Shown here: in pieces, positions 3,807 to 51,146 of the stretch
How positions within the stretch are numbered: position 1 is the first letter of the stretch
Layout of the letters: every line of letters starts with the position of its first letter
Assembly (NCBI RefSeq): GCF_003574735.1
Contig: NZ_QORW01000005.1
Span: 248,001 to 312,000 of the forward strand
DNA length: 64,000 nucleotides
Source: Dongia deserti
Lineage (GTDB): Bacteria > Pseudomonadota > Alphaproteobacteria > Dongiales > Dongiaceae
Reading direction: 5' to 3'
Translations under genes and position numbers: made by a program
The notes under the pieces: model-generated
Databases searched by the model: none
What the model was told of the DNA's origin: nothing
What the model saw: only the letters and a program-made list of their open reading frames with translations

Positions 3807-4358
3807 TTGCTCGCCGTGAGCGAACCAGCCCCGACCATATCCATCCGGCCGGTGGAGGCCGCGGACCTGGAGGCGATCCAGGCCATCTACGCCCATCACG
3901 TTCTGCACGGCCTGGCCTCGTTCGAGGAAACGCCGCCCGACACGGCCGAACTGACGCGGCGCTGGCGTGCCATCGTCGATGCCGGCCTGCCGTACCTCTG
4001 TGCGACCGAGGGCCCCGGCCCAATCCTCGGCTATGCCTATGCTGGCGCCTATCGGCCGCGGAGCGCCTATCGCTTCACAGTCGAGGATTCGGTCTACGTG
4101 GCTCCAGGCGCGGCCGGGCGGGGGATCGGGCGCGCTTTGTTAGGCCGGCTGATCGACATCTGCACCGATCTCGGCAAGCGCCAGATGATCGCGATCATCG
4201 GCGATTCCGGCAACGCGGGATCCATCGCGCTGCACCGCGCCTGCGGCTTTGAGCTGGTGGGGAGCTTCAGGTCGATCGGGTTTAAGCACGGCCGGTGGGT
4301 CGACAGCGTATTGATGCAGCGCTCTCTTGGCGCAGGCGACACCACGCTGCTTGCTTAA
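3807..4358 (+). CDS. GNAT N-acetyltransferase, phosphinothricin acetyltransferase-like
   Basis: 183 residues beginning SIRPVEAADLEAIQAIYAHH, typical of the Pat/Bar branch of GNAT enzymes. The acetyl-CoA-binding motif A is VAPGAAGRGIGRALLGRLID, followed by the GFELVGSFRSIGFKHGRW tail shared with phosphinothricin and methionine-sulfone acetyltransferases. It probably acetylates an amino acid or analogue. Start choice is between TTG at 3807, directly after the previous TGA, and GTG at 3816; both imply coupling to the amidohydrolase gene upstream. Substrate is inferred only from family resemblance. Confidence 0.85.
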   Translation: MLAVSEPAPTISIRPVEAADLEAIQAIYAHHVLHGLASFEETPPDTAELTRRWRAIVDAGLPYLCATEGPGPILGYAYAGAYRPRSAYRFTVEDSVYVAPGAAGRGIGRALLGRLIDICTDLGKRQMIAIIGDSGNAGSIALHRACGFELVGSFRSIGFKHGRWVDSVLMQRSLGAGDTTLLA

Positions 4359-4374
4359 CCCTTTGTATCCGCGG

Positions 4375-4404
4375 AAAAAAATGGGCCGTGCTTTAGCACG
4401 GCCC
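4375..4404 (-). terminator. intrinsic terminator of the sRNA
   Basis: Perfect inverted repeat GGGCCGTGC (4383-4391) and GCACGGCCC (4396-4404) with a four-base loop, followed on the minus strand by a run of seven T at 4375-4381. There is no T-run on the plus side, so it serves minus-strand transcription. Confidence 0.8.
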
Positions 4405-4475
4405 AAGTTCTGGGAGGAAACGCCCATAAGGGCGATGCGACAACGGAATGTCAGGGGAGATATCCAGTTGCCGCG
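4375..4475 (-). ncRNA. small RNA candidate of the suhB/MmgR (alpha-r8) type
   Basis: On the minus strand a sigma-70 promoter is followed by a roughly 100-base transcript. It contains a small hairpin (CGCCC/GGGCG, 4421-4434), then the unpaired GTTTCCTCCCA element, then a perfect 9-bp hairpin GGGCCGTGC/GCACGGCCC (4383-4404) ending in seven T residues (4375-4381). The UUUCCUCCC element beside a 3' terminator is the hallmark of the alphaproteobacterial suhB/MmgR sRNA family, which acts on polyhydroxybutyrate and phasin control in Sinorhizobium. The family call is from memory of the motif, so a covariance-model search should confirm it. The arrangement itself is clearly that of an sRNA gene. Confidence 0.7.
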
Positions 4476-9612: not shown

Positions 9613-9709
9613 GTCAGGGATCAGATGTCAAAAATCAGAGGTCAGATATTGGCTTGGAGGCGAGAAACTGACAACTCTGATTACTGATCCCTGATACCTG
9701 ACTACTGAC
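9613..9709. repeat. palindromic heptad-repeat element, copy A
   Basis: The left arm is a run of degenerate (GT/A)TCAGGG-like units (9613-9645). The right arm holds the complementary CTGATCCCTGATACC-type units (9668-9709). The core is TTGGAGGCGAGAAAC (9654-9668). The arms can pair into one long imperfect hairpin. It fills the whole gap between the amidotransferase start and the DUF983 stop, and that TAG stop lies within the right arm. Copies B and C lie near 11.2 and 50.1 kb. Confidence 0.8.
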
Positions 9710-10070
9710 TCGCCTTGGTCCGGAAGATCACCGCCATCACGCCGCCCTTGATGAAGGGCAGCAGCGCGAGACTGAGCACCAGCGTGAGGCTGCACCAGAT
9801 CAGCGCATGCACCCAGTCCGGGAAGGGCATGTAAGGCCACAGCAGCAGATAGAGGCTGACCACCAGATGGCCGACAATGAACAGGGTGAAATAGGGCGGG
9901 GCATCGTCCGAGCGCAGCGGCTCGAACGCCATCTTGCAAACCGCGCAGGCCTCTCGGACGGAGAGATAGCCTGCGAACATGCGCCCTTCGCCGCAGCGCG
10001 GGCACAGCCGGCGAAACCCCCGCCATACGGTCTCAAGTGCGCTCATGCTCTGACGGGAGGATGCCATCAC
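9702..10070 (-). CDS. DUF983 family membrane protein
   Basis: 122 residues. It opens with a zinc-binding-like CPRCGEG and a second ACAVCKM pair, followed by two transmembrane helices (TLFIVGHLVVSLYLLLW and ALIWCSLTLVLSLALLPF). This Cys-pair plus double-helix layout is DUF983 (PF06170), common in alphaproteobacteria and of undefined function, sometimes near cytochrome oxidase genes. Initiation is at GTG 10070 or the adjacent ATG 10067, with AAGGG a few bases ahead. The last residues are encoded by the flanking repeat. Confidence 0.85.
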   Translation of the reverse strand: MMASSRQSMSALETVWRGFRRLCPRCGEGRMFAGYLSVREACAVCKMAFEPLRSDDAPPYFTLFIVGHLVVSLYLLLWPYMPFPDWVHALIWCSLTLVLSLALLPFIKGGVMAVIFRTKASQ

Positions 10071-10157: not shown

Positions 10158-11207
10158 CTACAGCCGCTCCAACTGGTCCTGAAACTTGAGACGCGCCTTG
10201 TCGTAATTGTCCGCCCACCAGTTGCTGTCGCTGAAGGCCTGCAGCGCCAGGTTCTGCGGCTGCGTCGGGTCGATCGGGCGGAGGCTTTCCGGCATGGCGG
10301 CGGTGGCCGCCGGATTGGACGGGCCAAGGCCGCGCAGGCGCGTCAATTCCAGCTGACGCTTGGGCTGCTGCATCGCCGCCAGCAGATCGAAGGCGGCATT
10401 GCCGCCGGGATTCTTCTTCGGCACGACCCACATGCCGGGGCACAACAGACCGCCTTCGAACGTCCAGGCGATCGCGCCCTTGCTCTCCGCGCCCAGCTGC
10501 GCCGCGCGGCTATGCCACATGCACGCCATGGTGATGGTGCCGTCGAGCAGCATCTGCCGGACATGATCGCCGCTTTCCCAGACGACCAGGTCGTCGCCGA
10601 GGGTTGCCAGCTTCGCCACCGCGGCTTCAATGTCGATCGGATAGAGCTTGTCGCGCGCCGCGCCCGACGCCATGGCCGCCGCTTCGAATCCGCCGATCAT
10701 CCAGCGCCAGACCGCGCGCCGGCCCGGAAAGGTCCGACGGTCGAAGAAATCCTTCCAGGTCAGCGGCGGCCGTTTCGGGAAGGCGGCCGTGTTGTAGGCC
10801 AGCACGAAGGAGTAGGTGTAGCCGGCGATGGCATGTTCCAGCGCGAACGGCGCCATCACCGCCTCGCGCTGGACCTTCTTGTAGTCGATGATGCTGAGCA
10901 CGCCGGCATTGGCGAGGCGCACGGCGACATAACCGTCGACATCGCACAGATCCCAATCGACCTGGCCCTGGTCGACCATGGCCTTGATCTTGCCCTCGGA
11001 TGGACCCGCGCCGTCGAACAGAACCCTGATACCGGTCTCGCTCGTGAAGGGTCTCGCGAAAGCCGCCGTCAAATCCTTGATCTCACCCGCGCCCCAGGTC
11101 GCGATGGTCAGCTCCTTCGTCGCCGCCTGCGCCTCGCGCGGGTAGGCATGGAGAAGGGCGGCGGAGCCTGCGGCGCCTAGGAAGGAGCGGCGAGATAGTT
11201 CAGTCAT
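10158..11207 (-). CDS. PotD-like periplasmic substrate-binding protein
   Basis: 349 residues starting with a twin-arginine signal (SRRSFLGAAGSAALL ... REAQA). The mature part resembles family 1 solute-binding proteins for polyamines or iron-type ligands (ELTIATWGAGEIKDL, FDGAGPSEGKIKAMVDQGQ, WDLCDVDGY, YTYSFVLAYN). It is an orphan: no permease or ATPase gene is adjacent. It may serve a transporter elsewhere. The initiating ATG immediately follows repeat copy B, so no ribosome site is evident; starting a few codons further in would damage the signal peptide. Confidence 0.8.
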   Translation of the reverse strand: MTELSRRSFLGAAGSAALLHAYPREAQAATKELTIATWGAGEIKDLTAAFARPFTSETGIRVLFDGAGPSEGKIKAMVDQGQVDWDLCDVDGYVAVRLANAGVLSIIDYKKVQREAVMAPFALEHAIAGYTYSFVLAYNTAAFPKRPPLTWKDFFDRRTFPGRRAVWRWMIGGFEAAAMASGAARDKLYPIDIEAAVAKLATLGDDLVVWESGDHVRQMLLDGTITMACMWHSRAAQLGAESKGAIAWTFEGGLLCPGMWVVPKKNPGGNAAFDLLAAMQQPKRQLELTRLRGLGPSNPAATAAMPESLRPIDPTQPQNLALQAFSDSNWWADNYDKARLKFQDQLERL

Positions 11208-11316
11208 CAGTAATCAGGTATCAGGTATCAGGCATCAGAAAAAGGACGTTTCTACGCCTCCAATTCTGATCCCTGATTCCTGATCCCTGATCCCTGATCC
11301 CTGACCTCTGAATCAG
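11205..11316. repeat. palindromic heptad-repeat element, copy B
   Basis: The left arm reads as repeated ATCAGGT/ATCAGTA units (11205-11238). The right arm has four CTGATCC/CTGATTC units plus CTGACCTCTG (11264-11311). The core GTTTCTACGCCTCCAA (11248-11263) is nearly the reverse complement of the core of copy A. It exactly bridges the mmsA stop codon and the start codon of the binding-protein gene, and both codons are embedded in repeat units. Confidence 0.8.
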
Positions 11317-12809
11317 CGCATGGTTGGCATCACGAACTCGGCGCCGGCGCGGATGCCGGTCGGCCAGCGCGATGTCACGGTCTTCAGCTTGGTATAGAAG
11401 CGCACGCCCTCCGGGCCGTGCATATGATGGTCTCCGAACAGCGAGCGCTTCCAGCCGCCGAAGCTGTTGAAAGCCATCGGCACCGGGATCGGCACGTTGA
11501 TGCCGACCATGCCGACCTTGATCTTGGAGGCGAACTCGCGCGCCGCGTCACCGTCGCGGGTGAAGATCGCGGTGCCGTTGCCGTATTCATGCTCGTTCAC
11601 CAGCTTGACCGCGCTGTTGTAGTCCGGCACGCGCACGACGGAGAGAACGGGGCCGAAGATCTCCTCCTTGTAGATGCGCATATGCGGCTCGACATGGTCG
11701 AACAGGCACCCGCCGAGGAAGTAGCCGTTCTCATAGCCCTGCAGCCTCAGGCTGCGGCCGTCGACGACCAGCTTGGCACCTTCCTGCACGCCAAGATCGA
11801 CATAGCCCTTCACCTTCTCGTAGTGCTGCTTGGTGACCAGCGGGCCCATCTCGGCCTCGGGATCGGTGCCCGGCGCGACCTTGAGGCCGCGCACGCGCGG
11901 CGCCAGCTTGTCGATCAGCGTGTCGCCGACCTTGTCGCCGATCGCGACGGCCACGGAGATCGCCATGCAGCGCTCGCCGGCCGAGCCGTAGCCCGCCCCC
12001 ATCAGCGCATCGGTCGCCTGGTCCATGTCGGCGTCGGGCATCACGATCATATGGTTTTTGGCGCCGCCTAGCGCCTGCACGCGCTTATTGTGCGCGGTAC
12101 CCGTGTGGTAGATGTATTCCGCGATCGGCGTCGAGCCGACGAAGCTCACCGCCTGGATGTCCGGGTTGGTGAGGATAGCGTCCACCGCTTCCTTGTCGCC
12201 GTGCACGACATTGAGCACGCCGTCCGGCAGGCCGGCCTTCTTCATGAGCTCGGCCATGAAATTGGCAGCGCTGGGATCGCGCTCCGAGACCTTCAGAATG
12301 AAGGTGTTGCCGCAGGCCAGCGCGAGGGGGAACATCCACATCGGCACCATGGCGGGGAAGTTGAACGGCGTGATGCCAGCAACGACGCCCAGCGCCTGGC
12401 GCATCGAGTAGGAATCGACGTTGGTGCCGACATTCTCGCAGTAGTCAGCCTTCAGCATATGCGGGATGCCGGTCGCGAATTCCACCACCTCCAGGCCGCG
12501 CGTAATGGAGCCCTTGGCGTCGGAGAGGACCTTGCCGTGCTCGGAGGTCACGATGTGCGCCAGCTGATCCATGTTCTCTTCGACCAGCTGCTTGAAGCGG
12601 AACATGACGCGGGCGCGGATGAGGGGCGGGGTGGAGGACCATTTCGGGAAGGCCTCGGCCGCGACCTTCACGGCGGCGTCGACCTCCGCCTTGCTGGCCA
12701 GCGCCACTTTGGCCTGTACTTCGCCGGTCGCGGGATTGAACACATCGCCAAAGCGGCCGCTCTTGCCGGCGACTTCTTGGCCGCCGACGAAGTGATTGAT
12801 CGTACGCAT
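11313..12809 (-). CDS. mmsA: methylmalonate-semialdehyde dehydrogenase (CoA-acylating)
   Basis: 498 residues, full length for the family. Aldehyde dehydrogenase landmarks are [20 protein letters not shown], the NAD-binding [14 protein letters not shown], the ALGGAKNH segment that replaces the usual ELGGK, and the catalytic Cys in [11 protein letters not shown]. These are diagnostic of MmsA/IolA, which converts methylmalonate semialdehyde to propionyl-CoA in valine or inositol breakdown. ATG 12809 is preferred to GTG three codons upstream because GGTGAGG lies directly before it. No other valine-degradation genes are adjacent. Confidence 0.92.
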
Positions 12810-49155: not shown

Positions 49156-50046
49156 TTAGTCCTGTGCACTCGCCTCGGCGAGCCGCGCGGTGATCCAGCC
49201 GCGGAACGCCTTCACCAGCGGCTGGCGCAGCCTCCCGCGCTCAGCCACCAGGTAATAGGAGTTGGGCGCGCGGATGGCGAGGCTGAACGGCCGCACTAGC
49301 CGGCCTGCGGAGAGCGCGCCACCGGCGATGATCGGATCCCCGATCGCGATGCCTTGACCCGCGAGCGCCGCGGCGATCACCAGATGCATGTCGGAGAACA
49401 CGATGCCCTGCGCCGGATCGACCTCGTCGGCGCCCGCCGCCGTCAGCCACTGTGTCCAGTCGCTGTGGTCGGCGAGATGCAGCAGCGTCACCTTGGCGAG
49501 GTCGTTGGGTTCGCCCAAACCCCCGCACTCATTGATCAAGGTGGGGGAGCAGACCGGCGTCTCATGCAAATTGGCGAGTAGCTCGTACCACTTGCCGCTC
49601 CATTCGCCGCGCCCGAAGGCGATGAAAATGTCGATATCAGGTGCGCTCACGTCGTCGAACCGTTTCGGTGTGACGACGCTGATGCGTGCTTGTGGATGCG
49701 CGTCCTGGAAGGCGCCAATCTCCGCGCAGAGCCAGAAGCTGGCAAAGCCGGGCGCGCAACTGATCACCAGCCGGCCGCTGAGCGCCGCATCGGCCGACTT
49801 GGCGCGTGCGTCGGACAGGGTCTGCAGCGCCTTTCGCACTTCGCGCGCATAGGATTCGCCCCGCGGCGTCAGCACGACGCCACGTCCGTCGCGCTCGATG
49901 AGGGCGAAGCCGAGCTCGCGCTCCAGGAAACGCAATTGATGGCTAATGGCGCTGCGCGTGATGTTGAGCTCGGCGGCAGCCCGCGTCACGCTCCCGAGCC
50001 GCGCGACGGCATCGAGAGCGCGGAGCGCGCTGGTGGATGGCAGCAT
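49156..50046 (-). CDS. LysR family regulator (GcvA type)
   Basis: 296 residues: winged helix (LRALDAVARLGSVTRAAAEL, ITRSAISHQLRFLERELGFA) and a periplasmic-binding-like effector domain. The lead MLPSTSALRALDAVARLGS and the ERDGRGVVLTPRGESYAREV wing are typical of GcvA-like members. It probably activates the downstream hydrolase gene. Its ATG is embedded in repeat copy C, with no ribosome site visible. Confidence 0.88.
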   Translation of the reverse strand: MLPSTSALRALDAVARLGSVTRAAAELNITRSAISHQLRFLERELGFALIERDGRGVVLTPRGESYAREVRKALQTLSDARAKSADAALSGRLVISCAPGFASFWLCAEIGAFQDAHPQARISVVTPKRFDDVSAPDIDIFIAFGRGEWSGKWYELLANLHETPVCSPTLINECGGLGEPNDLAKVTLLHLADHSDWTQWLTAAGADEVDPAQGIVFSDMHLVIAAALAGQGIAIGDPIIAGGALSAGRLVRPFSLAIRAPNSYYLVAERGRLRQPLVKAFRGWITARLAEASAQD

Positions 50047-50119
50047 CAGAGGTCAGGGATCAGAAATCAGTAATCAGAGGGCAACGTGCCCTTCTGATCC
50101 CTGATCCCTGATACCTGGC
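50044..50119. repeat. palindromic heptad-repeat element, copy C
   Basis: Left arm ATCAGAGGTCAGGGATCAG followed by two more ATCAG units (50044-50078). Right arm TTCTGATCCCTGATCCCTG and ATACCTGG (50091-50118). The centre GGGCAACGTGCCC is itself a small hairpin and differs from the core of copies A and B. It occupies the gap between lysR and the polyprenyl synthase gene. Confidence 0.75.
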
Positions 50120-50126
50120 CACTCGC

Positions 50127-51146
50127 TCAATGTCCCCGGCGGATGCAGAAATCGACCACCTCGATCAGCGCGCGCTTATCGGCGCTGTCGGGGAAGATGC
50201 CGAGGGCATCGCGCGCGACGGCACCGTAATACGCGGCGCGCTGCACGGTGTCGCTGAGCGCATTGTGCTTGGCGATGAGGCGCTGGGCTTCGGCGAGGTC
50301 GCCACCCTTCTGTTCCTGATGCTCCAGCGTGCGGCGCCAGAATTCGCGCTCGGTTTTATCGCCGCGCAGGAAGGCGAGGATGACGGGGAGCGTGATCTTG
50401 CCCTCCCGGAAGTCGTCACCGATCTTCTTGCCCAGTGCTTCCTGCTTGGCGGAGTAGTCGAGCGCATCGTCGATCAGCTGGAACGCGATGCCGAGATTGA
50501 GGCCGAAGCTCGCGAGTGCTTCCTGCTCGCTCTTCGGCCGATCGGCCAGCACGGCGCCCACTTCGCACGCCGCCGAAAACAGAATGGCGGTCTTGCCCTT
50601 GATGACTTCGAGATAGGCCTGCTCCGTCGTCGCGGTGTCGTTGGTCGTCATCAGCTGCAGAACCTCGCCCTCGGCGATCTTGGCCGAAGCGCTGCACAGT
50701 ATTTCGAGGATGCGCAGCGAACCGTCCGCGACCATCAGCTGGAAGGCGCGGCTGAACAGGAAGTCACCGACCAGCACGCTGGCCTTGTTGCCCCAGAGGA
50801 CGTTGGCAGAGGCCTCGCCGCGGCGGAGGTCGCTCTCGTCGACCACGTCGTCGTGCAGCAGGGTGGCGGTGTGGATGAACTCGACGCAGGCTGCGAGGCC
50901 CGCGGCCCTCGGACCGGGATGTCCGCATAGCCGCGCGGCGGCCAATGTCAGGACCGGCCGCAGCCGCTTTCCGCCGGCGGCGATGATGTGCCCAGCCAGC
51001 TGCGGTATCAGCGAAACCGGGCTCTGCATGTGCTGCAGGATGAGCTCATTGACCCGGTCCAGATCGTCGCGCACCAACTGCGTCAGACGATCCAGCGCGT
51101 CCGGCTGCTTGTCCCGCCCGGTTTCCAGATTGACGATGACTGCCAC
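50127..51146 (-). CDS. ispB: polyprenyl diphosphate synthase (octaprenyl/decaprenyl type)
   Basis: 339 residues. First aspartate-rich motif LLHDDVVDESDLRRG, second QLIDDALDY, GGKRLRP substrate site and GDFLFSRAFQLMV match long-chain trans-prenyl synthases. It makes the ubiquinone side chain (C40-C50 in alphaproteobacteria); chain length is not readable with certainty. Divergent from a DUF2007 gene, as is common for this locus in Rhodospirillales. Confidence 0.9.
   Translation of the reverse strand: MAVIVNLETGRDKQPDALDRLTQLVRDDLDRVNELILQHMQSPVSLIPQLAGHIIAAGGKRLRPVLTLAAARLCGHPGPRAAGLAACVEFIHTATLLHDDVVDESDLRRGEASANVLWGNKASVLVGDFLFSRAFQLMVADGSLRILEILCSASAKIAEGEVLQLMTTNDTATTEQAYLEVIKGKTAILFSAACEVGAVLADRPKSEQEALASFGLNLGIAFQLIDDALDYSAKQEALGKKIGDDFREGKITLPVILAFLRGDKTEREFWRRTLEHQEQKGGDLAEAQRLIAKHNALSDTVQRAAYYGAVARDALGIFPDSADKRALIEVVDFCIRRGH

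Follow-up and report, generated by a model that had tools for sequence, protein, structure and literature searches.

The DNA analysed here, hereafter the window, is a stretch of 64,000 nucleotides from Dongia deserti. Three intergenic gaps in it are occupied by palindromic heptad-repeat elements, which we call copies A, B and C. Copy A (9613-9709) takes up the space between two minus-strand genes, one for a glutamine amidotransferase and one for a DUF983 protein; the latter gene spans 9702-10070 and is identified by a PF06170 match (E 7e-24). The arrays, loop and adjoining gene ends are as follows:

9613-9647, plus strand: left heptad array of copy A, ATCAGNN-like, five units
9648-9676, no strand: loop of copy A, unique sequence, holding one off-register CTGAC at 9668-9672
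9677-9709, minus strand: right heptad array of copy A, inverted, five units, holding the DUF983 stop codon at 9702-9704
11199-11240, plus strand: left heptad array of copy B, six units, holding the ATG of a solute-binding-protein gene (10158-11207, minus strand)
11266-11312, minus strand: right heptad array of copy B, seven units, adjoining the end of an aldehyde dehydrogenase gene (11313)
50045-50079, plus strand: left heptad array of copy C, five units, overlapping the ATG of a LysR-type regulator gene (49156-50046, minus strand)
50094-50117, minus strand: right heptad array of copy C, three full units and one partial, with a polyprenyl synthetase gene (50127-51146, minus strand) ending 9 bp away

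An earlier note on this DNA had described a palindromic heptad element at copy A, and the element is real: two opposed arrays of a degenerate ATCAGGN unit stand round a unique loop. The left arm reads GTCAGGG, ATCAGAT, GTCAAAA, ATCAGAG, GTCAGAT and the right arm, its inverted counterpart, CTGATTA, CTGATCC, CTGATAC, CTGACTA, CTGAC. The DUF983 stop codon is part of the repeat as the note had said, since its TAG (9704-9702) sits in the right arm. The accompanying claim, that the whole gap folds into one hairpin, stands in part. A hairpin is predicted for copy A RNA at -41 kcal/mol (z -4.9), but the arms do not pair from end to end and no mirror image is maintained between them. Copies B and C are cleaner, A being the most degenerate, and at all three the arms stop within a few bases of start codons.

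The repeats stand out clearly from the rest of the window. Allowing one mismatch, ATCAGGNATCAGG has 13 matches in the window, every one within copies A, B or C, against a mean of 0.31 in shuffled sequence. Identity at a lag of seven bases is 0.58 in the three element-bearing gaps vs 0.25 in the other 39, so that heptad periodicity as a general trait of all gaps was rejected. The unit is spelled CAGGNAT, not CAGTTAT, in copies A, B and C. In an Rfam 15 search of the window nothing at the element passed the gathering score; the only matches lay elsewhere, to a tRNA and to the suhB/mmgR small RNA (4368-4440, minus strand, 59 bits).

The outcome that the earlier note had named as fatal, that only these three loci exist, fails, and the suggestion of a repeat family is borne out genome-wide. 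A three-heptad pattern matched 60 times in the 6.13-Mb genome vs 2 for the reversed control. Merging these matches and adding a second, CAGATGT-like spelling yields about 28 elements, a count in which other spellings are under-represented because the search pattern fixes ATCAG. More than 20 unlinked loci have one common spelling. The arms comprise mostly two to seven heptads (about 20-45 bp) with no constant tag, the loops are mostly 8-67 bases, and whole elements measure about 50-130 bp. The majority have opposed arms, a few copies being one-sided, and the loop sequences are unrelated from locus to locus. The single motif is not in excess: in 400 kb, ATCAGG was observed 328 times vs 310 expected, and CAGGGAT 28 times vs 48 expected. 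A spelling-independent detector was run over 400 kb from each of two sister genomes (G001 and G003) and over 400 kb of the D. deserti genome (G000); outside the window it found no inverted arrays of period 7. Two contigs of the D. deserti assembly, C12 and C13, carry one identical half-element sequence at their ends, and the assembly was probably broken at that hairpin. A second dispersed repeat, not related to the heptad elements, is 100-135 bp long and apparently self-complementary (for example L049, about 12290-12423 and 3977-4078); it is present in tens of copies in G000, G001 and G002.

No element was called inside a gene. Every one is intergenic or trims the end of a gene, several taking over a start or stop codon, and many are held in tight co-directional gaps. 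Using a simple home-made frame-composition gene caller, on which these counts rest, 16 element gaps were co-directional, 5 convergent and 2 divergent vs 56, 10 and 30 among other gaps. Divergent gaps are modestly scarcer among those with elements (2/23 vs 30/96, Fisher p 0.035), with both divergent examples exceeding 500 bp, where gene calls are uncertain.

Folding is strong across the genome, with a mean z of -5.3 over 23 elements, and the loops alone are unstructured (-0.3). The variable dinucleotides of the two arms were matched at a fraction of 0.62 at best register vs 0.57 in shuffled arm pairs (p 0.05; the genome's elements). Since the variable bases barely match, the element is better viewed as two opposed arrays of one degenerate unit than as a mirror image kept by pairing. 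Arms maintained by pairing were accordingly rejected: matching at variable positions is just marginal in this genome and, while significant across phyla, is explicable there by genome-specific base preference.

The orthologous gap of 18 D. deserti loci could be read in one or more of three sister genomes of the genus (G001, G002 and G003). Copy B keeps its spelling and loop in G002 and is spelled CAGATGY in G001 and G003. At the copy C site, G001 has no element, G003 a CAGATGT-like one and G002 one spelled GAAGTCR. Further element loci are empty in one or more relatives, and one orthologous site (the L045 locus) holds a heptad-like seed, CAGGGATCGG, without repeats. By one detector, heptad palindromes occupy 6 of 41 gaps orthologous to D. 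deserti element loci, four of them in another dialect; the same detector found none in 618 random gaps of G000, G001 and G003 and none in 62 of G002 (Fisher p 0.005 for enrichment in G001 and G003 alone). Element places are kept or re-used while their spelling changes. A 5.5-kb segment (L186 3830-9319, contig C12) is absent from G001 and G003; it has elements within a few bases of both ends and a third inside. No target-site duplication or constant terminal inverted repeats were visible at empty/filled pairs, the relatives being about 16% diverged with poorly aligning spacers, too diverged for insertion ends to be reconstructed. By eye, two loci suggested that the loop is a remnant of the ancestral spacer; this was rejected, since local alignment to orthologous spacers was no better than to shuffles at 11 of 12 loci. 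In two convergent gaps (L047 and L057), also by eye, the element appears to give a neighbouring gene a new C-terminal tail and stop, replacing the last residues of the sister species.

The architecture is rare and extends across many phyla. It was present in 2 of 299 sampled genomes of the window's phylum and, within the window's own family, in this genus only. Nevertheless, at least 116 stretches matched in 84,980 species genomes vs our random-sequence estimate of about 7 for that size. Among the matches listed are Chloroflexi, Cyanobacteria, Planctomycetes, Verrucomicrobia, Acidobacteria, several Proteobacteria, Chlorobi, Bacteroidetes, Peregrinibacteria and others. In viral contigs the inward heptad pattern matched 79 stretches, and the controls gave 12 (outward or reversed), 10 (scrambled core), 7 (period 6) and 3 (period 8). 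These control counts are far below 79, so that a period of seven, a CAG core and an inward orientation characterise the family. Outer units, which the pattern leaves unconstrained at positions 4-7, give the consensus C-A-G-x-N-A/G-T, with positions 1-3 biased by the extension rule. The fourth base is the same in both arms in 72 of 82 elements from genomes (expected fraction 0.40) and in 109 of 115 from viral contigs (expected fraction 0.50). It is also uniform over loci in most multi-locus genomes, being T in Microcystis, Fischerella and a Syntrophobacterales bin and C at the loci of a Saprospiraceae bin. This prevailing fourth base, or dialect, is a property of the genome.

The viral contigs are from IMG/VR and may include host DNA, but two of those discussed here, L286 and L216, do carry phage tail genes. 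The tail module of L286 encodes tape measure, tail assembly and central tail fibre proteins (PHROG), and 9 of the 12 gaps in its tail operon are filled by CAGT heptad arrays; related contigs have like gap-fillers. The variation in unit number between strains for which the earlier note had proposed a test is seen here as 7-bp indels within arrays of relatives 96-99.9% identical: L231 and L250 (99.9% identical) have one array whose length differs by a single heptad, and several 7 bp indels separate L216 from L283 (96% identical). At one gap of the latter pair (L216, about 1262-1370) the fillers are wholly different, CCGAAAA-type vs CAGT heptads, and look as if swapped whole. Contigs L215, L219, L225, L247, L286 and relatives have a loop common to several loci (AAAGGCAAA / TTTGCCTTT), unlike D. 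deserti. BLAST of the arrays against phage and plasmid collections returned nothing useful, the two phage matches lying in a coding gene.

Our best explanation as a whole, to which we give somewhat less than even odds, is that the elements are a family of REP-like intergenic hairpins evolving by heptad slippage and dialect replacement. The family is rare and patchily distributed, each element consisting of two opposed degenerate heptad arrays (C-A/G-G-x-N-R-T, CAG side towards the loop) round a locus-specific loop. Arrays gain and lose whole heptads, as seen between the near-identical phage contigs, and the dialect at a given gap is replaced over evolutionary time. Elements persist chiefly downstream of at least one gene, reaching only slightly into coding sequence. 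Because nothing points to a dedicated transposase, we infer that new copies arise from an existing array copied in trans; the probable route is template switching or the annealing of CAG-containing repeats, which would homogenise the dialect of a genome. A long hairpin between genes may be tolerated as harmless or, as proposed for REP elements, kept because it is useful in the transcript, with processing, 3'-end protection or the uncoupling of neighbouring genes as candidate uses. Phages could plausibly carry the elements from one phylum to another. What the data show directly is that arrays gain and lose whole heptads, that hairpin potential is strong, that the elements are confined to intergenic gaps and recur at the same gaps in other spellings, and that RAYT genes are absent.

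Two rivals seem to us unlikely. The strongest is that each arm is a series of sites recognised by a sequence-specific protein that binds DNA or RNA, with the dialect following that protein's specificity and placement near starts serving translational or transcriptional control. A fixed core with genome-specific flanks does resemble co-evolution of site and binder, and a repeat-binding translational regulator has been proposed for the TAACTGA repeats (MacGregor 2015, PMC4679880). The ends of the arms close to start codons at copies A, B and C fit such control, and the weak matching of the arms at variable positions, which argues against strong selection on pairing, implies that pairing is not what is kept. 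This rival thus accommodates both dialects and weak pairing, but the genes beside the three window copies are functionally unrelated, convergent gene pairs flank several of the elements, outside the arrays single heptads show no enrichment, and no candidate protein was identified. Of comparable standing is a MITE- or REPIN-like miniature element that a transposase mobilises as a unit. In its favour are gaps filled in one genome and empty in another, the sporadic spread over many phyla and the elements bounding the 5.5-kb insertion. Against this, loops are unrelated between loci, which a transposon moved as a unit does not explain and which argues against movement of the whole element, and they do not come from the ancestral spacer; no constant ends or target duplications were visible between relatives as diverged as these, and a gene end appears, by eye, to have been trimmed at several loci. 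RAYT as mobiliser was rejected, since none of the genus's four genomes (G000-G003) had a match to its gene (Y1_Tnp, PF01797), while the same search was positive in E. coli and in five genomes from elsewhere in the family.

Plain local slippage, in which any spacer grows heptads by polymerase slippage and the palindrome comes from local hairpin copying, is improbable on its own. Whole-unit indels and the unrepeated seed at the L045 locus speak for it, long simple repeats favour heptamers as their unit, and PMC4679880 cites Mrazek 2007 as reporting that longer repeat units are in excess in some prokaryotes. One spelling at more than 20 unlinked loci makes local slippage alone insufficient, however, and other cores, orientations or periods are rare in the controls while ordinary gaps are free of heptad periodicity. 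Ordinary intrinsic terminators, which are also hairpins downstream of genes, are very unlikely: the arm units are G+C-poor for a G+C-rich genome, many elements sit in tight co-directional gaps, no terminator was called in copy A, and the one call in copy B is at chance level (2 found, 1.0 expected). A DNA uptake system is largely refuted and is the least credible reading of all. Neisserial DUS do have dialects, a CTG core that does not vary and inverted pairs where genes end (PMC3630211), reminiscent of the CTG/CAG core, dialects and inverted pairs downstream of genes seen here. Uptake sequences in the Neisseriaceae, however, number thousands of single 10-12-mers per genome, whereas the present family has tens of elements built from a 7 bp unit in arrays. 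Such a system needs an excess of single sites, and single heptads outside arrays are at chance level.

A wider reading, which we regard as possible but doubtful, is that REP-like hairpins of this kind form a pan-bacterial, phage-borne class of self-spreading or co-evolving intergenic element, with a CAG-core heptad, a genome dialect, two arrays directed towards a loop and fixed gene boundaries at which the spelling is rewritten. If true, it would imply a trans-acting factor, either copying machinery or a binder, that enforces the dialect. It is unusual for a dispersed repeat to keep its place while its spelling changes, and this offers a testable case for concerted evolution or a co-evolving binder. 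A phage tail operon with arrays in most of its gaps is also at hand. The elements may also explain assembly breaks, as at the two D. deserti contigs, and altered gene ends beside them.

Among known systems, the cyanobacterial short tandemly repeated repetitive (STRR) heptamers are likewise heptameric intergenic tandem repeats, occurring as direct arrays that are used for fingerprinting, whereas the arrays here are inverted; to our knowledge, STRR sequences have been described without inverted architecture or cross-phylum dialects. The earlier note was right to set the element apart from CRISPRs, since contiguous 7-bp units in inverted arms take the place of identical direct repeats with spacers of constant length. 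It was equally right that this is not a standard REP or BIME. The elements are, like REP, BIME and REPIN sequences (GTAG and CGTC families, PMC3733652), dispersed, extragenic and hairpin-forming, present in tens to hundreds, patchily distributed and devoid of coding capacity. They differ in that the GTAG/CGTC tag with its 20-40 bp unit is not seen, the arms instead being CAG-x heptad arrays of about 20-45 bp vs REP stems of 5-13 bp, with unit number changing in 7-bp steps and no RAYT in the genus.

The suggestion that the family may be undescribed needs qualification. The inverted, multi-dialect family was not found described in the literature searched, which left subscription journals largely outside, and as a whole it appears undescribed there; one spelling of its unit has been published. 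TAACTGA heptamers (CAGTTAT inverted) were reported as direct repeats in Beggiatoaceae, cyanobacteria and Bacteroidetes (MacGregor 2015, PMC4679880), and they are the closest published relative of the heptad hairpins. On the other strand they are one spelling of the same unit (TCAGTTA, a CAGTTAT spelling), the general heptad covering both CAGGNAT and CAGTTAT, and this seems to be the single spelling described earlier. Both occur in intergenic gaps, the TAACTGA repeats in arrays of 2-6 or more, with 7-nt indels between strains, a patchy distribution and no evident transfer mechanism. The TAACTGA repeats were reported in one spelling and as direct, with a single inverted repeat in 170 sets (PMC4679880), whereas in the heptad hairpins opposed arrays round a loop are the rule, in several dialects and in further phyla and phages. 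The present analysis thus ties a published oddity to a far wider architecture of period 7, CAG core, inward orientation and genome dialect.
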